Source: Thermoplasmata archaeon
GTDB lineage: Archaea; Thermoplasmatota; Thermoplasmata; Lutacidiplasmatales; UBA184
Direction: 5' to 3'
Length of the DNA stretch: 35,681 nucleotides
NCBI GenBank assembly: GCA_030037265.1
Contig: JASHRQ010000115.1
Location: 1 to 35,681 of the forward strand
The notes below the pieces were generated by a model that saw nothing but the letters and a program-made list of their open reading frames with translations, searched no databases and had not been told where the DNA came from. Position 1 is the stretch's first letter. Each line of letters opens with the position of its first letter. The translations under genes and the position numbers were made by a program. Shown in pieces: positions 3,132-20,268 of the stretch.

Positions 3132-3710
3132 CTACGGCGCCACGAGCCGCTGCGAGAACTGCTTGCGGAACTTCGCCACCTTCGGGGCGATGACGAACTG
3201 GCAGTACGCCTTCTCCGGATTCCGTCGGAAATACTCGCGGTGGTACCCCTCCGCCGGATAGAAGGTCGTGAACGGAACGACCTCCGTCACCACCGGCCCG
3301 CGCCAGATCCTGGCGGCCGTCACTTCGTCGATCACCTGGCGCGCCGTCACCCGCTCCGCCTCGGTGCGGTAGAAGACCACCGAGCGGTACTGCGGGCCGA
3401 AGTCGTTCCCCTGGCGGTTCTTCGTCGTCGGGTCGTGGACCGTGAAGAAGATCGCGAGGAGGTCGTGGAACGTGAGCACGTCCGGGTCGTACGTCACCTG
3501 CACGACCTCGGCGTGGCCGGTCTCGCCCGTGCACACGTCCTCGTACGTCGGGTTCGCGACCGTCCCGCCGGCGTAGCCGGGCTCGACCTGCCGGACGCCC
3601 CGGATCTCGAGGAAGACCGCCTCGGTGCACCAGAAGCACCCTCCGCCGAGCGTGGCGACCGCCGGGCCGGGACCGTTGGCGGGCCCGACGGCCCCGGCGG
3701 CGGGAGACAT
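3132..3710 (-). CDS. msrA: Peptide-methionine (S)-S-oxide reductase
   Basis: ATLGGGCFWCTEAVFLEIRGVRQVEPGYAGG, GHAEVVQVTYDP, FTVHDPTT: MsrA hallmarks. Confidence 0.95.
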   Translation of the reverse strand: MSPAAGAVGPANGPGPAVATLGGGCFWCTEAVFLEIRGVRQVEPGYAGGTVANPTYEDVCTGETGHAEVVQVTYDPDVLTFHDLLAIFFTVHDPTTKNRQGNDFGPQYRSVVFYRTEAERVTARQVIDEVTAARIWRGPVVTEVVPFTTFYPAEGYHREYFRRNPEKAYCQFVIAPKVAKFRKQFSQRLVAP

Positions 3711-3845
3711 CCGGGCGGCGCAGGAGCGACCCCCGTTTCAAGCTTGCCCGGCCGGAGGGGGGTCCCGACCCGGGCGCCGAGTCGGAGGGCGGGCCCGAGC
3801 GACGGCCCGGACAAGCCTCTTCCGCTCCCGCGGTACCGGGGGGCC

Positions 3846-5099
3846 ATGGCCGTCCGGTTCGAGGCCGAGCTGTTGATCCCCGGCGAGGGCGCGCCGATCC
3901 CGAACGGAACGCTCGTCGTCGAGGGCCCGACGATACGGTACGCGGGGCCGACGGAGGGCGCCCCCGAGGCCGCCCCGGGGGAGCGGACGCACACGGTCCC
4001 CGTGCTGATGCCCGGGCTGTGGGACTGCCACTGCCATCTCATGGGCCTCCGGACCTCCAATCCGGACGAGCTCGCCCGAACGCCGGTCGCGACGCAGGTG
4101 GCTCGCGCGGCGTTCGATGCCCAGAAGGCGCTCCGCGCGGGGTTCACGAGCGTGCGCGAGGTGGGCGGCCACGGCCTCCTCATCGCGCGCGCCATCGACG
4201 AGGGGACGATCCCCGGACCGCACGTCTATGGGTCCGGGATGATGCTGAGCCCGACCGGGGGCCACGGGGACTTCCACTCCTACCCGCTGCCGTTCGTCCA
4301 GTCCCTCGCGGAGGCGAACGGATTCTCGGGAGTGTGCGACGGCGTGCCGGACTGCCTCCGGGCGGTCCGCCGCTGCCTGCGGCTCGGGGCCCGCGTGATC
4401 AAGATCTGCGCCACCGGCGGGGTGCTGAGCGACCTCGACCACCCGGAGCACGCGCAGTTCTCGCCGGAGGAGCTCCGGGCGATCGCGGAGGAGGCCGCGC
4501 GCGCCGAGCGGATCGTCGCGGCGCACTGCCACGGCAAGGCCGGCATCCTGGCCGCGCTCGCCGCCGGCATCCGCACGATCGAGCACGGGAGCTTCCTCGA
4601 CGGGGAGGCGGTGGACCGGCTCCTCGAGGCGCAGGCGATGCTCGTGCCGACGCGGTTCGTGGTGCACCAGCTCGTCACCGTCGGGAAGGGCACGGGGCTC
4701 ACCGACGCGATGTTCGCGAAGGCGACGGCGATCGCCGACCGCCACCGGGAGTCGCTCCGCCTCGCGGTCCGCCGGGGGGTCCCGATCGCCGCCGGCTCGG
4801 ACATCTTCGCGTCGACCCCCCAGACCGGGATCGCGTGGGGGATGCACGGGGGCGAGCTCGTGCGGCTCGTGGAGGACGGCGGGATGAGCCCGCTCCAGGC
4901 GATCCAGGCCGGAACGGCGAACGGCCCGAGGACGCTCGGGCCGCAGGCGCCCCGGTCGGGCCAGCTCCGGGAAGGGTTCGCGGCCGACTTCCTCGTCGTC
5001 CGCCGGGACCCGGTGCGGGACATCACGGTCCTCGCGGACCCGGAGAACGTGCAGCAGGTCTGGAAGGACGGCCGACCGGCGGTCGAGCGGCCGGCCTGA
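3846..5099 (+). CDS. Amidohydrolase family protein (imidazolonepropionase/prolidase-like)
   Basis: ATG 3846; MPGLWDCHCHL metal-binding HxH, KICATGGVLS, AAHCHG, IEHGSF, AAGSDIF motifs. Confidence 0.9.
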   Translation: MAVRFEAELLIPGEGAPIPNGTLVVEGPTIRYAGPTEGAPEAAPGERTHTVPVLMPGLWDCHCHLMGLRTSNPDELARTPVATQVARAAFDAQKALRAGFTSVREVGGHGLLIARAIDEGTIPGPHVYGSGMMLSPTGGHGDFHSYPLPFVQSLAEANGFSGVCDGVPDCLRAVRRCLRLGARVIKICATGGVLSDLDHPEHAQFSPEELRAIAEEAARAERIVAAHCHGKAGILAALAAGIRTIEHGSFLDGEAVDRLLEAQAMLVPTRFVVHQLVTVGKGTGLTDAMFAKATAIADRHRESLRLAVRRGVPIAAGSDIFASTPQTGIAWGMHGGELVRLVEDGGMSPLQAIQAGTANGPRTLGPQAPRSGQLREGFAADFLVVRRDPVRDITVLADPENVQQVWKDGRPAVERPA

Positions 5100-5156
5100 C
5101 CGGCGCGCCGGCCGCAACGCTTTCCCTGCGCGGGCCGTTCCCGACGGGCGCCGGCC

Positions 5157-5723
5157 ATGCTCCCGCACCTCCGCTCGCCCCCGGCGACCGTGCCGACCCA
5201 GCCGGACCCGATCGACGAGGGCGCGTACCAGGCGATCTCGCTGCTCGGCGAGGAGCGGGTCCTCCGGTGCTGGGCCATCGCGCACGGTTTCGTGGTCCTC
5301 ACGAACCTGCGCTGCCTCTCCGTCCTGCGGCCGGAGCTCCTCCTGTGGAAGGGCGACTGGACGCTCGGCCCGGAGCTGCCGTTCTACAACCTCGCGGTCC
5401 CCACGGTCGTCGCGGGACGGTACGTGAGCCTCCGGGAGGAGACCCCCGTCAGCGGCACCACCCTCCGGTTCGCCGCGCGCCACCCCGAGAACGTCCGCGC
5501 CGAGATCGAGGCGGCGATCGCGCCGGGCCGCCGGGACTGGGAGGCGCTGCGACGCCAGCCGCGCGTCTCCGTGTCGACGCGGGTCCAGCCGGGACCCGGC
5601 GGCAGCACCGTCTACGTAGAGGAGGTCGTGCGCACGATCGTGAAGGTGCCGTGCCGGTACTGCGGGGCGCTCATCGAGTCCACGGTCTCGCGCTGCCCGC
5701 TCTGCGGCGCCCCGCAGCGCTGA
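5157..5723 (+). CDS. Hypothetical protein with C-terminal zinc ribbon (possible PH-like N-terminal domain)
   Basis: C-terminal CRYCGALIESTVSRCPLCGAPQR (two CxxC). Confidence 0.7.
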   Translation: MLPHLRSPPATVPTQPDPIDEGAYQAISLLGEERVLRCWAIAHGFVVLTNLRCLSVLRPELLLWKGDWTLGPELPFYNLAVPTVVAGRYVSLREETPVSGTTLRFAARHPENVRAEIEAAIAPGRRDWEALRRQPRVSVSTRVQPGPGGSTVYVEEVVRTIVKVPCRYCGALIESTVSRCPLCGAPQR

Positions 5724-5743
5724 CGGCGGGTCGGGGACTCCCC

Positions 5744-5764
5744 CGGCTCGCCCGCGCCGAGCCG
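5744..5764. terminator. Stem-loop between convergent genes (CGGCTCG-7nt-CGAGCCG)
   Basis: Perfect 7-bp inverted repeat between stop codons of convergent genes; not T-rich, so terminator function is tentative. Confidence 0.3.
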
Positions 5765-5777
5765 CCCGGGGGCGGGG

Positions 5778-7931
5778 TCACCACTTGACCCCGGACTCGG
5801 GGGTCGGGAACCCGCAGTGCGGACAGTAGAACGACCCCGACGGGACCGAGCCCCCGCACCGCCCGCAGACCGCCGGCGGGGCCGCGGGGGTCCCGCGCGC
5901 GGCCGGGGCGGGGCGGGCGCCGGTCGCGGGGGTGGGATACCTCCGGGTCAGGAACACCACCGTGCCGATGAGAAGCGCGAGCGCGAGTCCGGCGGCCACC
6001 GCCCCGAGCACGATCTCGACCCACGGAACGCCGTACAGCGCCGGCACGACGGTGAACGCGAACGTCGCGTTCGCGGACCGGCCGACCGAGTCGGTCGCCT
6101 CGACGGTCACCCGGACCGCCCCGGACGAGAGCGGGGCGCACGACAGGGTCGAGGCGTTCGCCGTCGAGCAGTCCGACGGCAGCCCGGTCCACCGGTACGT
6201 GAACGGCGGAAGACCCCCGCCCACCGTCACCGCCATCGTCACCGTGTCCCCTTCGTAGAGCGACCGCGTCGAGAGCGACCCGGACGCGATGACCGGGTCC
6301 GCCGCGACCTCCACCGCGAGCGAGGGGGAGAGGGCGTGCCCGCCCTGGCTATCGGTCACGTTCACCTGGACGGAGAACTCGCCGGTCGCCGTGGGCTCGC
6401 ACGCGAGCTCGCTCGCGTTCGACGACGGGCACCCCGACGGGAGCCCCAGCCAGTCGTACCCGTACGGGGGGGCCCCGCCCATCGGCGAGACCGAGAGCAC
6501 GAGCGACCCGCCCAGGTCGATCGCGCCGGTCGCGGGCTGCGAGGAGATCGGGCCCGGGAGCGGGCCGCTCACCACCACCGGCGCCGCGGTCGAGAGCGGC
6601 GTCGAGTACAGCTCGAGGCTGCTCGGGGAGCCGATGGAGGCGCCCGTCGGGACGTACCAGAGGGTGAGGCCGCTCTCGTACGTCCCGGAGGCGAGCCCGC
6701 CGCAGATCCGCCCGTCCGTGGCGTAGCCCGCCGTGCCGGCCGTCACCGAGAACCCGACCGCGGCGCCCGAGCTCGTAAGGCAGGTGACCGTCCCGTCCTG
6801 CCCGAGCGCGGCGGCGATCCCGAGGTCGGTCGGGCCGGACGCGCCGAAGCTGTCCGGGCTCGTCAGCTCGAGCGAGGCCGGGAGCGCCGCGCCGGCCGGG
6901 TACTGGCCGGCGGTCACGCCGCCTCCGCTCCCCGACCGGTACGGGTCCTCCGCGTCGACGAGGTACTGGAGCCAGAACGTCCCGGGCGAGGCCACGTCGG
7001 AGACGAGCGCGACGACGGCGCTCGAGTACGAGGGGTTGAGGATCGACAGCGCGACGAGGTCCGCGGCGGACCCGTTCAGCGGCTGCCAGGCCCCGGTCCC
7101 GTTCTCGTACTGCGCCGCGGTGACCGGGACGGTCGCGAAGGCGGGCAGCTCCACGATCGTCGAGCCGAGCTCCGGGCTCTCCTCGATCCAGTCCGCGGAG
7201 TCGAACGTCGAGGCGAGGCAGCTGCCCGAGCAGGTCTCCTCCCCGACCCACGCCGACGCGGTCGTGTTGTCGTCGATCTCGAACGTCCACTGCTGGTCGT
7301 CCCCCGCGGAGAGCCCCGAGTACACGACGCTGACGAAGATCGCGTCCCCGGCGGAGATCGTCGGGTCCGGCGCGAGCTCGACGGCGGTCGCCGACGCCGG
7401 GAGCATCTCCCACCACGCGGTCAGCACCGTCCCGCCGCCGGTCTCCGGCTCGGCGAACACCCCGGCCTGGACGAGGTCGTTGACGGCGAATCCCCCGACC
7501 CCGACCCAGGTCGCGCTCGCCTCGGTGCCCGACGAGGTGACGGCGGCCGGAGTCGCGACGAACGACGCGCGGACGCCGGTCACGTGGGTCTCGCTCGCCG
7601 TCGGGGCCGGACAGGAGGTCCCGCTCAGGTCGGGGCAGACGACGTAGCCGGCCCAGTTCTCGCTGTCGACGGCGATCCCCTGCGACGTCGACCGGGCGGT
7701 CCCCAGGCCCAGCACGTCCTGGCCGCCGGGCTCGAGCAGCGCTCCGCCGAGGCGTACCGAGAGGGCGGTCGGGCCCGGGACGCCACCGGCGCCGGCGGGC
7801 AGCGCGACGAGCCCGAGGCCCAGCACCGCCGCGACGGCGACGGCCATCGCGACGCGCGACCCTCGACCGCCAGAGCGGGACGCTGCCCACGGGCGACCCG
7901 CGCCGAACCGGCCCGGCTTGCCGTCCGGCAT
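5778..7931 (-). CDS. Peptidase G1 (eqolisin)-like secreted/membrane-anchored protein with two Ig/PKD-like domains, C-terminal TM and zinc ribbon
   Basis: SENWAGYV, ATWVGVGG, QAGV, AWWEMLP, SADWIEESP match G1 family motif order; repeated LxxxPSGCP...LxCxPxxxG domains; TM EIVLGAVAAGLALALLIGTVVFL; CGRCGG...CPHCG. Start chosen at MPDGK because the first in-frame ATGs overlap a TATA-like element; ORF extends to 7997. Confidence 0.75.
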   Translation of the reverse strand: MPDGKPGRFGAGRPWAASRSGGRGSRVAMAVAVAAVLGLGLVALPAGAGGVPGPTALSVRLGGALLEPGGQDVLGLGTARSTSQGIAVDSENWAGYVVCPDLSGTSCPAPTASETHVTGVRASFVATPAAVTSSGTEASATWVGVGGFAVNDLVQAGVFAEPETGGGTVLTAWWEMLPASATAVELAPDPTISAGDAIFVSVVYSGLSAGDDQQWTFEIDDNTTASAWVGEETCSGSCLASTFDSADWIEESPELGSTIVELPAFATVPVTAAQYENGTGAWQPLNGSAADLVALSILNPSYSSAVVALVSDVASPGTFWLQYLVDAEDPYRSGSGGGVTAGQYPAGAALPASLELTSPDSFGASGPTDLGIAAALGQDGTVTCLTSSGAAVGFSVTAGTAGYATDGRICGGLASGTYESGLTLWYVPTGASIGSPSSLELYSTPLSTAAPVVVSGPLPGPISSQPATGAIDLGGSLVLSVSPMGGAPPYGYDWLGLPSGCPSSNASELACEPTATGEFSVQVNVTDSQGGHALSPSLAVEVAADPVIASGSLSTRSLYEGDTVTMAVTVGGGLPPFTYRWTGLPSDCSTANASTLSCAPLSSGAVRVTVEATDSVGRSANATFAFTVVPALYGVPWVEIVLGAVAAGLALALLIGTVVFLTRRYPTPATGARPAPAARGTPAAPPAVCGRCGGSVPSGSFYCPHCGFPTPESGVKW

Positions 7932-8036
7932 CTGCCTACCGAGCCTCGATTCGCCACCGGTCCGCATATACTCGTCGTGACGGCTCCGGGTCCGCACCGG
8001 CCCGCGCGGGGGGCCGGAGCGGCTCCGCCGCCCCGC

Positions 8037-9419
8037 CTACGCCGGGGCGGGCGGCGTCCCGACGCCGAGGAGGAGCGTCGCGAGCGCGAGCATCGACGGG
8101 GGCACGTCCTCGAGCCGCACGTTCTCGTTCGGGGCGTGGGCGCGGCTGCCGCTGTTGCCGACGCCCGGCGGCTCCAGCGCCGGGGTGCCGGCGCGGGTGA
8201 AGTAGGCCGTGGTGGACGAGCCGAGCGACCACGGGACGACGTTCGGCGGGGCGCCGTACGCCTTCTTCGCCGCCCGGAGCGTCGCCTGGGCGAACGGGGA
8301 GGAGACCGGCGTCGAGGCGGGCGGGAACCCGTCGGACGCCCGGACCTGGACGTCCTCGAAGCCCCGCGCCTTGAGGTGCGCGACGAGCCGGTCCCGGGCG
8401 ACGGCGGCCGTCTGCCCGGGCAGGAGGCGGAGGTCCAGCTTCGCGCGCGCGACGGCGGGGTTCACGGTCTTGCTGCCGGGGCCGGTGTACCCGCTCACGA
8501 GCCCGTTGATCGTGCAGGTGGGGCTGTAGTACGCCCGGCGGAGCCGGACGAAGCGGCTCCCCTTCACCAGCAGGGAGGTCACGCCGTACTCGTCCTGGTA
8601 CCGGGCCGGGTCGAAGCTGTTGCGCCGGAGGTACCGCAGCATCTCCGGGTCGGGGGCGTCCACGCCGTCCAGGAACCCGTCGATCAGTACCTTCCCGTCG
8701 TCCCGCCGGAGCGTCCGGAGGGCGGCCACCAGCCGCCAGGCCGCGTTCGGGACGAGGACCGCGAGCGAGGAGTGCTGGTCCACGCGCGCGGTCCGCACTT
8801 CCAGCTCGAAGCTCGCGACCCCCTTCGACCCGAGGGCCACGACCGGCCGGCCGTCGGGGCTGCGCGCCGTCGCCTCGATCGTCGCGCCCGCGCCCCGGAA
8901 CAGCTCCGGGTGCTCGCGCGTCAGCGCCTCCAGGTGCGGGCTCCCGCTCTCCTCCTCCCCCTCCACGAGGAACCGCACGTTCACGGGGAGGTGCCCCGCC
9001 TCCTCGCGGAGGGCCCGGACCGCGAGCGCCTGGGCCACGGTGTTCCCCTTGGTGTCGGAGACCCCGCGCGCGTAGATCCGCCCGTCCCGCACCTGGGGCG
9101 AGAACGGCTCGCTGGTCCACTCGTCGACCGGGTCGACCGGCTGGACGTCGTAGTGGTTGTACAGGATGACCCACGGCCGGGCCGGGTCGCTCTCGACCTC
9201 GCCGACGACGACCGGCGGACCGCCGTCGGCGGTGTACCGGCGGACCTGGGCCCCGGCCCGCTCCAGTACCTTCTGGGTCGCGGCCGCGCCCTCCTCGAAG
9301 GCCGCCCCGTGCGCCGAGATCGTCGGCACGCGGGCGTACTCCGTCAGCGCCTCCGTGAACTCGCCGAGGAGGGCGTCGGTCCGTTGGAGCAGCTTGCGGT
9401 GCAGCGGGTCGGCGGGCAT
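8037..9419 (-). CDS. M20-family metallopeptidase (dipeptidase-like)
   Basis: ILYNHYDVQPVDP, YARGVSDTKGN, FLVEGEEESGSPH; classic M20 motifs. Confidence 0.93.
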   Translation of the reverse strand: MPADPLHRKLLQRTDALLGEFTEALTEYARVPTISAHGAAFEEGAAATQKVLERAGAQVRRYTADGGPPVVVGEVESDPARPWVILYNHYDVQPVDPVDEWTSEPFSPQVRDGRIYARGVSDTKGNTVAQALAVRALREEAGHLPVNVRFLVEGEEESGSPHLEALTREHPELFRGAGATIEATARSPDGRPVVALGSKGVASFELEVRTARVDQHSSLAVLVPNAAWRLVAALRTLRRDDGKVLIDGFLDGVDAPDPEMLRYLRRNSFDPARYQDEYGVTSLLVKGSRFVRLRRAYYSPTCTINGLVSGYTGPGSKTVNPAVARAKLDLRLLPGQTAAVARDRLVAHLKARGFEDVQVRASDGFPPASTPVSSPFAQATLRAAKKAYGAPPNVVPWSLGSSTTAYFTRAGTPALEPPGVGNSGSRAHAPNENVRLEDVPPSMLALATLLLGVGTPPAPA

Positions 9420-9504
9420 CGGAGGAACGCTCCCGCCCGGGCACGCCCCGGGACTTAAGAGGCCGCCGGTCCGGCGGGATCGCCCCGGGCCCGCGGGGGC
9501 CGGG

Positions 9505-10250: not shown

Positions 10251-10796
10251 TCAACGGGACCGCCGTCCCCGGGGGCGCCGGCGCGGCCGCCGCCGGGCGC
10301 GACGCAGGTGGGGGATCCACATCATCGACGGGGGCTCCCGGTCCATCTGCCAGTAGACGGCGATCAGCTCCCCCACGTGGTGCGCCTGCTCGAGCGTGAC
10401 CTGGAGCAGCGCGTCCTTCACGGTGTACGTCCCGGGCATCCACGGCGCCTTCACGGGCCGGCGCAGGTCCCGGTCCGTCAGGGTCGACAGCCGCTCCGTG
10501 ACGCCGGCCCATACGCTCCGGTCGTACGCGCGCACCTCGGCGAGGGAGCGGAGGCGGTCCGGGTCGTACCGCTTCCGGCTCTCGGCGAGCTCGGCGAGCC
10601 GTCCCGGGAGGATGTAGTTGACCCAGGCGTCGTAGACGCGGAGGATGTGGAGGTAGGTGTTCTTCATCGAGAGATGGCCGGTCTCGACGTTGCGCGTCAC
10701 CGTCCTCCACGGGAGCCTCGCGAGGCCCCGACGATAGTCGTCGAGCACGGCGCGGTTGTACGCGAAGAGCGCGCGGAAATCGTCGGCCGTCGCCAT
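10251..10796 (-). CDS. DinB-superfamily protein
   Basis: NVETGHLSMKNTYLHILRVYDAWVNYIL ... LLQVTLEQAHHVGELIAVYWQM, spaced His typical of DinB fold. Confidence 0.85.
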   Translation of the reverse strand: MATADDFRALFAYNRAVLDDYRRGLARLPWRTVTRNVETGHLSMKNTYLHILRVYDAWVNYILPGRLAELAESRKRYDPDRLRSLAEVRAYDRSVWAGVTERLSTLTDRDLRRPVKAPWMPGTYTVKDALLQVTLEQAHHVGELIAVYWQMDREPPSMMWIPHLRRARRRPRRRPRGRRSR

Positions 10797-10871
10797 GCCG
10801 GTCGGGGGAGGCGCCTCCCGCTATTTCAGCGCGCCGAACGCGGACACGATTCGGGGAATCCGTAAGTACTG

Positions 10872-10932
10872 CGCGCGGTTCGCTCCGCGCGGAACCGCGC
10901 GACGACCCCCGTTGGGCCGCGGCGCGCGGTTC
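10872..10932. repeat. Three copies of CGCGCGGTTC (+ at 10872, - at 10892, + at 10923) in the DinB / PNGase A-like intergenic region
   Basis: Exact 10-mers read from sequence; the first two form a perfect 10-bp inverted repeat with 10-nt spacer. Confidence 0.6.
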
Positions 10933-10947
10933 GAGGGAGTGGAAACG

Positions 10948-12699
10948 ATGGTGGCACGGGCCCGGGGCGTTCTGCTGTTGATCGGCGTCGCCGCGCTGGC
11001 GGCGGTGATGATGATGCCGACGAGCGTGGGCACGGCGGCCGCCGGGCCCGTCCGCCTCGCCGACGACCCGTCGAGCTTCCCGGCGGCGAACTACTCCAAC
11101 CTGGACGTGGCGCCGCTGCCGGAGGTACCGCACACGACCCCGATCGTCGTGAACGTGACCGCGTACGGCACCGTCGCGATCCCGACCGGGACCTGGGAGA
11201 CGGTCCTGATGAACTACACCGGCTACACCGCCGGGACGGCCTACGACTACTTCCAGACGGTCACGATCGACGGCGCGATGGTGTACGTCGGCGTGAACCC
11301 CGAGGCGGGCCACTGGACGCAGTTCGTGAACCTCAGCGAGTACCTCGCGTTCTTCGACGGGCAGTCGTCGATCACGATCTCCGGCCCGTCGCTCGGCTCG
11401 GGCACGAACTTCGAGGGAATCCAGGACAACTACATCTCGCTCGTCTTCTACCCCGTCCCGGCGCGCCACGCCGGGCCGTCGTATCCGACCGAGGTGATCC
11501 CGCTCTTCCAGTTCTCCGGCACGCCCTCCTCCACGTCGGTGACGATCCCGACGGATGCGAGCGCCGTCGTCCTCCAGATGATGGCGATCGGCTCCGAGTT
11601 CTGGTACTCGCTCAACCCGGACTTCACCGCCGTCACGGTCTCGGTCGGCGGCACCAACGTGAGCAACTACCTGCAGTACCCCTGGATCAACTCGGGCGGC
11701 ATCGACCTGTTCTCCTGGCGTCCGATCTTCCCGGTGAACATGCTGAACCACCAGTGGGAGGACTTCAACCTCACGGGCGCGCTCGGCCTCATCGAGGGGA
11801 CCCACGACCTGAACGCGACGCCCGCCGCCGGCTCGCTCGGGGCGGACGTGATCGCGAACCTCCTCGTCTACACGAGCCCGACGGTGCTCGGGGCGCACTC
11901 CGTGTCGTACAGCTACCGGCAGGCGCCGGTGCGGACGACCTACGCCGAGAACGCCTCGCTCGTGAACCTGAACGGGAACAACTACACCTTCTACGACCAG
12001 GCCGACCGGATCTCGTACGACTACTCGAGCCGGATCACCACGACCACCGGGCAGTACACCGCGTCGCTCAGCACCCAGGAGGAGTACGTGAACGACCAGA
12101 CGTTGACCGCGCTCTGGCAGAACATCACCGAGAGCGAGGTGACGACGACGCAGACCACGACGACGTACAACGAGCGGAACCTCCACGGCGAGGCGACCAG
12201 CTCGCAGACGCTGTCGTATCCGCTCGCGATGGACCTGGGCGAGGTCCTCACCTACCTGTACAGCGAGGACGGCGGGAGCCTCCAGTTCTACAACTACACG
12301 AGCGACTTCCTCAACGTCGAGCAGGGGTACTTCGAGACCGACGCGTCGGCGGCCGTGCTGAACGGCGTCGCGTCGAGCTCCTCCACCTCGATCGAGAACG
12401 CGATCGTCCACACGAACGGGGTGTTCGTGAGCCTGCTCGAGATCGGGCCGGGCTACGCGATCATCCTCAACATCACCTCGTCCCAGCACACGACGAACAA
12501 GGTGTACGCCGCGCTCACGACCCAGCGGACCGGCGACCGGACCTCCGTCGGGTACTACTACCACGCCCTGTCGGGCGTCGAGGACAATTCGACCTCGTAC
12601 TACGTCGAGGAGAACGTGACGCAGAACGTCGTCGTGGCGTACGAGCTCAGCTTCGGCGGAGGGCGGTCCGCACCGAGCCTCGGGGCGCGCCTCCGCTGA
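10948..12699 (+). CDS. Secreted PNGase A-like (peptide-N4-asparagine amidase A-type) protein
   Basis: ATG 10948 with signal peptide; TGTWETVLMNYTGYTAGTAYDYFQTVTIDGAMVYVG, EFWYSLNPDF, YPWINSGGIDLFSWRPIFPVN, HDLNATPAAGSLGADVIANLLVYTSP resemble the PNGase A family. Confidence 0.7.
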   Translation: MVARARGVLLLIGVAALAAVMMMPTSVGTAAAGPVRLADDPSSFPAANYSNLDVAPLPEVPHTTPIVVNVTAYGTVAIPTGTWETVLMNYTGYTAGTAYDYFQTVTIDGAMVYVGVNPEAGHWTQFVNLSEYLAFFDGQSSITISGPSLGSGTNFEGIQDNYISLVFYPVPARHAGPSYPTEVIPLFQFSGTPSSTSVTIPTDASAVVLQMMAIGSEFWYSLNPDFTAVTVSVGGTNVSNYLQYPWINSGGIDLFSWRPIFPVNMLNHQWEDFNLTGALGLIEGTHDLNATPAAGSLGADVIANLLVYTSPTVLGAHSVSYSYRQAPVRTTYAENASLVNLNGNNYTFYDQADRISYDYSSRITTTTGQYTASLSTQEEYVNDQTLTALWQNITESEVTTTQTTTTYNERNLHGEATSSQTLSYPLAMDLGEVLTYLYSEDGGSLQFYNYTSDFLNVEQGYFETDASAAVLNGVASSSSTSIENAIVHTNGVFVSLLEIGPGYAIILNITSSQHTTNKVYAALTTQRTGDRTSVGYYYHALSGVEDNSTSYYVEENVTQNVVVAYELSFGGGRSAPSLGARLR

Positions 12700-17226: not shown

Positions 17227-20200
17227 GTGAACGGGTCGCCAACCGGGTATCGGAGTCTTCGAGCCAATCGACGAGCGATCTCTTCGGCCATCGGCGCGAT
17301 CATCCTCGCGGTGATCGTCGTCGTGGGCGGCGTCGGGGCCTTCCTGGCCACCTCGGCCACCACATCGCCCACGCACAGCTGCACGCCCTCGACGAGCCCG
17401 GTCTGTATCGGCACGTCGAACCTCCATGACGTGACCGTGCTCGCCCCGCTCAAGGCGGCGCTGCAGGGCACACCCGTGCCCTTCACGGCGCAGTTGCCGG
17501 GGGGAGAGGTCGCGACGAGTTACAATTTTAATTTTGGAGACGGGGCGTACCAGAACGACACCACGAGCGGGTCGTACGACCATACGTATGCCTCGCCGGG
17601 CACCTACCTCGTCCAGGTCTCGGCCGACGTCGGGGGCGTCCTCCACGACAACGACCACGCGATCACCTCCCTCGTCATCCAGACGTCCTACGCTTCGGAT
17701 ATCCGCGGGATCTATCCCACGGACGCGGGCTCGATCCTCTCCAACAGCACCTCCTCCGCCTCCAGCGGCTCTCCGACCGCGCTCCTGCACGTCGGTCAGT
17801 CGATCACCGTGGAGGGCCAGTACACCCTCTCGCCGACGAGCCCCGGCTACTCGCTCGGCACTCCGTCCCTGGTGGCGACCGGCGGCGTGACGCCGACCGG
17901 CTACACGGTGACCGCCTCCTCGGCGCAGGGGACCTTCACGTTCTCGACCGCCGGCACGTACCTGATCACGTACGTCGGCACCGGCGTGAGCGCATCGGCC
18001 CCGACGGCGTACGAGAACTACACCTGGACCGTCGATGTCGCCCCGACGGGCACCGGGCTCGGACTGGCCGGCACGAGCACGACGAGCAGCCCACACCCGG
18101 GCACGATCATCGCGTACGAGGACCAGCCGGGCGGCGCGACCACCTTCGACCCCGCGATCGACTACGACGTCGCCGGGTTCGAGGTGCTGCTCAACGTCTA
18201 CCAGACGCTCATCCAGTACAACGGCACCGAGGTGGGACCGTCGTACTCCGACTACGTCCCCGTGATCGCGACCTGCGTGCCGGGAAGCCCCCAGTGCACG
18301 TCCCTGTACGGCAACTCGCTCCTCAACGGGACGAACTACACCTTCGTGATCAGCAAGTCGGCGCACTACTACGACCACGCGACCGGCGCGGACTGGGAGG
18401 TGTACCCGTCCGACGTCGTCTTCTCGATGCTCCGGACGATGGGCTTCTCGCAGTATCCGGGGCTCAGCGTCACGCCGGGCTGGATCCAGACCGAGGCGCT
18501 CCTGCCGGCCGGGAACGGGAGCTGGGACAACGGGACCCACGCGACGTTCAACAACACGCCGCAGTACATGTTCGCCTCCATGTCGGTCAACGCGAGCCCG
18601 TGGTGCCCGGCGATCGCACTGACCGAGGACAACGGTTGCGTCACGTTCCACGCGAACGCGACGAACTCGTTCGGCAGCTCCTGGCCGTACTTCCTCGAGC
18701 TCATCGCCGATCCGGAGGGCGCGGGGATCGTGCCGTGCGGCTGGTTCAGCGAGCCGGCCCAGGGCCAGGGGATCCCGGGTTGGACGCTCGACAACGCGTC
18801 GGACCAGGGGGACCATTCGTGCGCGATGCCCACCGCGAGCCAGATCGCCGCGATGAGCCCGACCTCGCTCGACAACTGGGAAACCTCGTACGTCAACAGC
18901 AACACGGGCGCGTATGTCGGGGACACCCAGTGGAACACCGTCGGGAGCGGCCCGTACTACCTCGTGAACACCCAGGTCCACTACTCCTACACGCTCGCGG
19001 CGAACCCCTACTACGAGGCGAACCCCTCGTGCACGGGCGGAAACTGCCTCCCGGCGCCGGGGACGTACGTGCCCAACATCGAGGTCTACTGGGAGCAGAA
19101 CCCGTCGGCCGGGGAGCAGGCGATCGCGTCCGGGGCGGCCGACGTGGGCTACATCCCGTCGACCGACACGGACCTACTCCTCCAGTTGGGGGAGCAGGGG
19201 AAGACGAACTCGATCATCCTGCCCACGCTCGGGCTGAACGTGCTGTCGTTCACGTTCAACTTCTCCGTCGCCCGGGAGCACACGTACACGTCGAACCCGG
19301 TGAACATCCCGTCCACCTGGTTCTCCAACCTCGGCGTGCGGCAGTTCTTCACCCACGCCTATCCGTACGCGACGATCGAGTCGGAGATCAACACCAAGGA
19401 CGGCATCCAGTACGGGTTCGACGTCGGCGGGGCGATCCCGCAGTTCATGTCGAATTACTACCCGTCCAACGTGCCGTGGCCGAACGGCACCCCCGACACG
19501 AACGCGAACGACATCGGCGGCGCGGCGTGGTGGTGGGCCCAGGTCACCGAGAACACGAGCAGCCCGTACTACGACGCCTGGACGGCGACGCACTGCCTCC
19601 CGTCCTCGCCGTGCGAGTTCCCGATCTACGGCGAGCTGGGCGCCCCCGACGAGGACCAGCGGCTCACGCTCTACATCCAGTCGGTGTCTCAGCTCACGCA
19701 CGGGGCCGTCGAGATGAGCCTCGTCGACCTCACGCAGACCGAGGAGACCGAGGAGGGGACGGACACGGGCGGGCCCGGCACGAGCGCGCTCCCGATGCTG
19801 ATCAACCTCTGGCTCCCCGACTTCCCGGACCCGAGCGACTACACCGTGCCGTTCTACACGCCGGACGCGTTCTTCACCTACCCGACCGCGGTCGGGGAGC
19901 AGTTCGCCCAGCCCCAGTACAACACGACCCTGCCCGGGACCACCACGCCGTGCCCGACCGACTACAACTACTGGGTGAACAACTCGGTGCCGCAGAGCTG
20001 CCAGGGCGCCGCCTACTCCGCGATGATCATCCTGAACGCGCTGGCGGGCGCGCTCCCCGCGGGCCCGCTCCGGGTCCTCTGGTACGACGAGATGGAGACG
20101 ATCGCGAACAAGCTCGCGATCATGGTCGACGAGTACCAGAGCAACTACGTGGAGACGTTCGCCTCCTGGCTCTACCCGCCCTCGCTCGAAACGAACGTGA

Positions 20201-20268
20201 TCAACGTGGGCGACTACGTCTGGTACTACGTGACCGGGAACAACGTGCTCCCGCCGTCCTCGTCCTGA
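17227..20268 (+). CDS. Pilin-like signal + PKD domain + ABC transporter family-5 (peptide-type) solute-binding protein
   Basis: GTG 17227; RRAISSAIGAIILAVIVVVGGVGAFLATSATT (archaeal pilin/DUF1628-like N-terminus); YNFNFGDGAYQNDTTSGSYDHTYASPGTYLVQV (PKD); GGATTFDPAIDYDVAGFEVLLNVYQTLIQYNGTE (SBP_bac_5-like). Confidence 0.85.
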   Translation: MNGSPTGYRSLRANRRAISSAIGAIILAVIVVVGGVGAFLATSATTSPTHSCTPSTSPVCIGTSNLHDVTVLAPLKAALQGTPVPFTAQLPGGEVATSYNFNFGDGAYQNDTTSGSYDHTYASPGTYLVQVSADVGGVLHDNDHAITSLVIQTSYASDIRGIYPTDAGSILSNSTSSASSGSPTALLHVGQSITVEGQYTLSPTSPGYSLGTPSLVATGGVTPTGYTVTASSAQGTFTFSTAGTYLITYVGTGVSASAPTAYENYTWTVDVAPTGTGLGLAGTSTTSSPHPGTIIAYEDQPGGATTFDPAIDYDVAGFEVLLNVYQTLIQYNGTEVGPSYSDYVPVIATCVPGSPQCTSLYGNSLLNGTNYTFVISKSAHYYDHATGADWEVYPSDVVFSMLRTMGFSQYPGLSVTPGWIQTEALLPAGNGSWDNGTHATFNNTPQYMFASMSVNASPWCPAIALTEDNGCVTFHANATNSFGSSWPYFLELIADPEGAGIVPCGWFSEPAQGQGIPGWTLDNASDQGDHSCAMPTASQIAAMSPTSLDNWETSYVNSNTGAYVGDTQWNTVGSGPYYLVNTQVHYSYTLAANPYYEANPSCTGGNCLPAPGTYVPNIEVYWEQNPSAGEQAIASGAADVGYIPSTDTDLLLQLGEQGKTNSIILPTLGLNVLSFTFNFSVAREHTYTSNPVNIPSTWFSNLGVRQFFTHAYPYATIESEINTKDGIQYGFDVGGAIPQFMSNYYPSNVPWPNGTPDTNANDIGGAAWWWAQVTENTSSPYYDAWTATHCLPSSPCEFPIYGELGAPDEDQRLTLYIQSVSQLTHGAVEMSLVDLTQTEETEEGTDTGGPGTSALPMLINLWLPDFPDPSDYTVPFYTPDAFFTYPTAVGEQFAQPQYNTTLPGTTTPCPTDYNYWVNNSVPQSCQGAAYSAMIILNALAGALPAGPLRVLWYDEMETIANKLAIMVDEYQSNYVETFASWLYPPSLETNVINVGDYVWYYVTGNNVLPPSSS

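Follow-up and report, generated by a model that had tools for sequence, protein, structure and literature searches.

The window, a 35,681-nucleotide stretch (contig JASHRQ010000115.1), carries on its minus strand a gene for a G1 (eqolisin) peptidase that is predicted to be exported and held in the membrane by a C-terminal helix. The source genome (1.67 Mb, 154 contigs, 82% complete) also has two further G1 genes, both without a C-terminal anchor. The gene, its parts and the frame opposite it are:

5778..7997, minus strand: anchored G1 peptidase gene, at most 739 aa; likely starts GTG 7997, ATG 7967, ATG 7931 or ATG 7847
7788..7853, minus strand: signal-peptide hydrophobic core, residues 49-70 (hydropathy, charge; cleavage site inferred)
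7008..7685, minus strand: G1 (Peptidase_A4, eqolisin) domain, approximately residues 105-330 (Pfam, profile match, Foldseek)
7467..7469, minus strand: predicted catalytic Gln177, equivalent to Gln53 of scytalido-glutamic peptidase (SGP), by alignment
7179..7181, minus strand: predicted catalytic Glu273, equivalent to SGP Glu136, the second E of ADWIEES, by alignment
6558..7007, minus strand: companion beta-domain, approximately residues 331-480 (alignments, profile search, strands in the model)
6288..6536, minus strand: first Ig/PKD-like stalk domain, approximately residues 488-570 (model, Foldseek matches to Ig-like domains)
6033..6287, minus strand: second Ig/PKD-like stalk domain, approximately residues 571-655 (PF00801 below cut-off; model)
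5940..6026, minus strand: transmembrane (TM) helix, residues 658-686, then Arg-Arg (hydropathy 2.51, predicted helix, positive-inside charge)
5811..5867, minus strand: putative CxxC-x11-CxxC zinc ribbon, residues 711-729, predicted cytosolic (cysteine pattern, model strands; Pfam below cut-off)
5817-9458, plus strand: 1213-aa antisense open frame, a GC-rich mirror ORF opposite the G1 and M20 genes

The G1 gene has four candidate starts, at residues 1, 11, 23 and 51. A preliminary description of the locus had begun the gene at the in-frame ATG of residue 23 (5778-7931), and the eqolisin motifs it listed lie at their given positions on the minus strand, within the ORF 5778-7997. Codon-based gene calling, which was only approximate in the G023 sample, missed the G1 gene in the window and scored the antisense ORF above it; the G1 gene is therefore defined here independently of that call. 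The antisense ORF is spurious, because homology places both the G1 and the M20 gene on the minus strand.

Based on profile, alignment, tree and predicted structure, the ORF encodes a genuine member of the G1 glutamic peptidase family, the identity proposed in the preliminary description, which had suggested a Peptidase_A4/G1 profile search and a structure prediction as checks. The Pfam Peptidase_A4 model matches residues 135-315 with 63.2 bits (curated cut-off 22.3, E=3.1e-17). Aspergillopepsin II (1y43) is the best sequence match among solved structures in a plain sequence search, with its catalytic residues aligned, and a profile built from 26 relatives retrieves 1y43_B at 1.2e-31 and 1s2b (scytalidopepsin B) at 1.3e-23. 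In an AlphaFold model of residues 72-480, the G1 part mostly exceeds a pLDDT of 90 and is predicted to form the G1 beta-sandwich, which Foldseek superposes on SGP (2ifw) with E=1.7e-11, an rmsd of 2.5 Å and a target TM-score of 0.86; the best PDB matches of the model are SGP and aspergilloglutamic peptidase.

The catalytic Gln and Glu previously assigned to this protein are both present by alignment. In the alignment, the catalytic Gln of aspergillopepsin II falls on the QAG motif, and ADWIEES pairs with AEWIVED, so that the catalytic Glu is predicted to be the second E, residue 273. Among 96 aligned G1 domains, the Gln is kept in 88 and the Glu in 89. The aspartate at position 43 is important in SGP, and the window protein differs in having a glycine there. 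Gly43 is regarded as an acceptable substitution in fungal, bacterial and archaeal eqolisins (PMC6154417). The same source lists Gly8, Gly41, Gly44, Gly55, Trp67, Glu69 and Pro72 as conserved in eqolisins (PMC6154417), and by alignment their equivalents in the window protein are Gly117, Gly166, Gly169, Gly179, Trp195, Glu197 and Pro200. No counterpart of the long, strongly basic prosegment of fungal eqolisins was identified in the window protein.

Eqolisins are described as secreted enzymes. SGP (MEROPS G1; 2ifw, 1s2b) shares with the window protein the beta-sandwich, the Gln/Glu pair, the conserved glycines and the Trp67/Glu69/Pro72 equivalents, but is a fungal enzyme secreted in free form, which lacks the companion domain, the stalk, the TM helix and the ribbon. 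Aspergillopepsin II, unlike the window protein, is secreted, two-chain after processing and devoid of an anchor. Alicyclobacillus pepG1 and the prokaryotic G1 branch, which already includes archaeal members (PMC3009609), belong to the same family and have the same catalytic pair, whereas a term search of that publication returned no mention of a membrane anchor.

The regions flanking the catalytic domain suggest a type I membrane protein. A basic n-region precedes the hydrophobic core of the signal peptide, and the G1 domain is followed by the companion beta-domain, which had been overlooked in the preliminary description and is conserved in, and common to, all anchored relatives. The two Ig/PKD-like repeats and the C-terminal TM helix reported there are supported, and we call the stalk domains Ig/PKD-like only, since PF00801 (PKD) scores 18.4 bits on the second of them, under its cut-off of 23.5, while the fold is clear in the model. 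With a basic N terminus before the hydrophobic core and Arg-Arg after the second helix, the positive-inside charge pattern predicts an N-in/C-in topology, and the ribbon, joined to the helix by a linker that is disordered in the model, is expected to be cytosolic provided that the signal peptide is used. The ectodomain has an acidic pI (~4.05) and contains no lysine in its 585 residues.

The presence of a G1 gene in this order is ordinary: 60 of the order's 106 genomes and 83 of 400 genomes sampled across the class contain one, and A4 peptidases are reported to rank with the most prevalent extracellular peptidases in Lutacidiplasmatales (PMC9287336). Its high GC content and its many A4 peptidases suggest that the order is probably Candidatus Lutacidiplasmatales as described there. 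Nearly all G1s of the order are free secreted proteins which, although of the same family and host group as the window protein, stop soon after the G1 domain with no later TM helix and fall outside the anchored clade. The earlier suggestion that a membrane-anchored G1 is unusual agrees with these data, as a TM helix follows the domain in only six of the 95 G1 ORFs whose end is visible, all in one clade. A tree computed from 96 tail-less G1 domains groups these six with the fragment L052, itself a long branch, with support of 99/97; the group is recovered in 200 of 200 bootstrap trees, and none of 500 shuffles clusters as well. The closest anchored G1 is that of G040, a related genome of the same family. 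A companion-domain profile, trained on these same seven anchored sequences, finds only them in the order and none beyond it in 390 genomes of the phylum. This seven-member anchored G1 clade with a companion domain is new and is seen only in this order; searches of an open-access literature collection gave no direct report of membrane-anchored G1s or of ribbon-tailed archaeal surface proteins, which is not proof of novelty.

The cytosolic tail is more variable. The CxxC...CxxC ribbon noted earlier is present (CGRC-x11-CPHC), predicted as short strands and probably cytosolic; the 55-residue tail has four cysteines, every one of them within CxxC-x11-CxxC, a spacing seen in 0.1% of shuffles, and as Pfam ribbon models stay under their cut-offs (DZR, 14.1 vs 27.3; Zn_Ribbon_1, 10.5 vs 25) the tail is called a putative zinc ribbon on its cysteine pattern only. 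None of the six anchored relatives shows a ribbon: five finish in a short basic tail, and the frame of the sixth (L052) breaks off ahead of any TM helix. Of 33 Ig/PKD-stalked surface proteins whose end is visible, 30 carry a TM helix close to it, and a ribbon follows the helix at a short distance in three (the window protein included) and further out in a fourth, a rate that may be too high because the sample was drawn with a ribbon-containing query. About 800 kb of a same-genus genome yielded no ribbons among its C-terminally anchored candidates. Because the ribbon-tailed proteins carry different ectodomains, namely SBP_bac_5 (L198), Kelch (L199) and Ig/PKD arrays (L200, L202, L203), we conclude that the Ig/PKD-TM-ribbon tail is a swappable module moving between unrelated surface proteins.

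Several other genes with related tails were observed. The same-genus SBP_bac_5 protein L198:260-4192 (+) has a PKD-TM-ribbon tail, and its homologue in the window (17227-20268, +; E=8e-51) is without one. Two adjacent PKD-array surface genes, L200:3-3434 and 3508-6330 (+), both have TM and ribbon ends, the second with two CxxC-CxxC units. In the window, 5157-5723 (+) encodes a 188-aa protein with no predicted TM helix and the same kind of ribbon at its end, convergent with the G1 gene at a distance of 54 bases. L201:686-3556 (-) is a Kelch/PKD surface protein with a MarR-type winged-helix-like tail after its TM helix (Pfam MarR_2 E=0.0015, below cut-off), possibly an outside-to-DNA one-component regulator.

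An amidohydrolase gene and three further genes of interest accompany the G1 gene in the window:

8037..9419, minus strand: M20 metallopeptidase, dipeptidase-like (PF01546 E=4.2e-31; NCBIfam PRK06446/dipeptidase models)
10756..12699, plus strand: secreted PNGase A-like protein (PF12222 E=2.8e-9; listed start probably too early)
17227..20268, plus strand: PKD and SBP_bac_5 solute-binding protein, family 5, peptide-binding type (PF00496 E=2.8e-8, PF00801 E=2.5e-9)

The M20 gene is co-oriented with the G1 gene, 39 bases upstream of its first possible start. None of the M20, PNGase A-like, amidohydrolase or SBP_bac_5 neighbours was found in the short flanks of the anchored relatives; hence the link to peptide uptake is drawn from this single window, and we claim no operon.

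We propose, as the probable role of this protein, that it is a surface-retained G1 acid endopeptidase that feeds peptide uptake and whose ribbon is an auxiliary module for docking in the cytosol. The protein would be exported via its signal peptide, anchored as a type I membrane protein and act at acidic pH as an endopeptidase on the outside of the cell. If the catalytic step is carried over from the characterised eqolisins, Glu273 would be the general base activating water and Gln177 would stabilise the tetrahedral intermediate, as in SGP. Proteins held near the cell would be cleaved, the resulting peptides could be bound and imported via the SBP_bac_5 protein, and cytosolic peptidases, the neighbouring M20 enzyme for example, may finish them. 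The ribbon would be an interchangeable docking module gained on the stalk-TM cassette in this lineage and dispensable for catalysis.

Alternatively, the protease may mature or attack specific envelope proteins, neighbouring cells or viruses rather than digest food protein, since anchoring restricts its reach and favours defined targets, and the two unanchored G1 genes could serve bulk digestion. We regard this as unlikely, as no target is known and the neighbouring genes point to amino-acid and peptide use.

Somewhat more doubtful is an adhesin or scaffold whose G1 fold is used for binding while catalysis is being lost in the clade. The catalytic pair is lost in two of the seven members, L051 (Gln to Ala, Glu to Ala) and L052 (both changed), and peptidase activity is therefore not essential to the architecture everywhere; both genes (L051:808-3090, -; L052:231-2162, -) encode anchored-type G1s that are likely pseudo-peptidases. 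Long Ig/PKD stalks are typical of adhesins, which also appear among the Foldseek matches of the stalk. However, no visible residue of the pair is changed in the window protein or in four of its relatives, and the window protein retains the other eqolisin hallmarks.

For the ribbon, docking is the modest reading and signalling the bold one. The preliminary description had proposed that the architecture could couple outside proteolysis to an inside partner, in which case outer cleavage or substrate binding would alter the cytosolic ribbon and recruit a nucleic acid or protein partner. A well-formed, probably cytosolic ribbon fits this proposal, as do the ribbons on Thermoplasmatales heliorhodopsins, for which signalling has been proposed (PMC8612252), and the weakly matched MarR-like winged helix after the TM helix of L201, another surface protein of the order. 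We nevertheless consider it improbable and unsupported, since the ribbon is seen in none of the six clade relatives, tails of this kind are shuffled between ectodomains that are unrelated, there is no known conserved partner gene and the ribbon is that of a single sequence. Its furthest extension, a transmembrane proteolysis sensor that would be the first eqolisin reporting extracellular activity to the cytosol via a zinc ribbon and would belong to a broader class of archaeal surface proteins whose cytosolic ribbon or winged-helix tails are exchangeable, seems more improbable still.

Returning to the surface-retained endopeptidase that we favour, an anchored clade with its own companion domain, in which some active sites have been lost, suggests that archaea of acid soils may digest at the cell surface. 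The recurrence of the stalk-TM-ribbon cassette on varied ectodomains raises the question of what docks at the inner face of the membrane.
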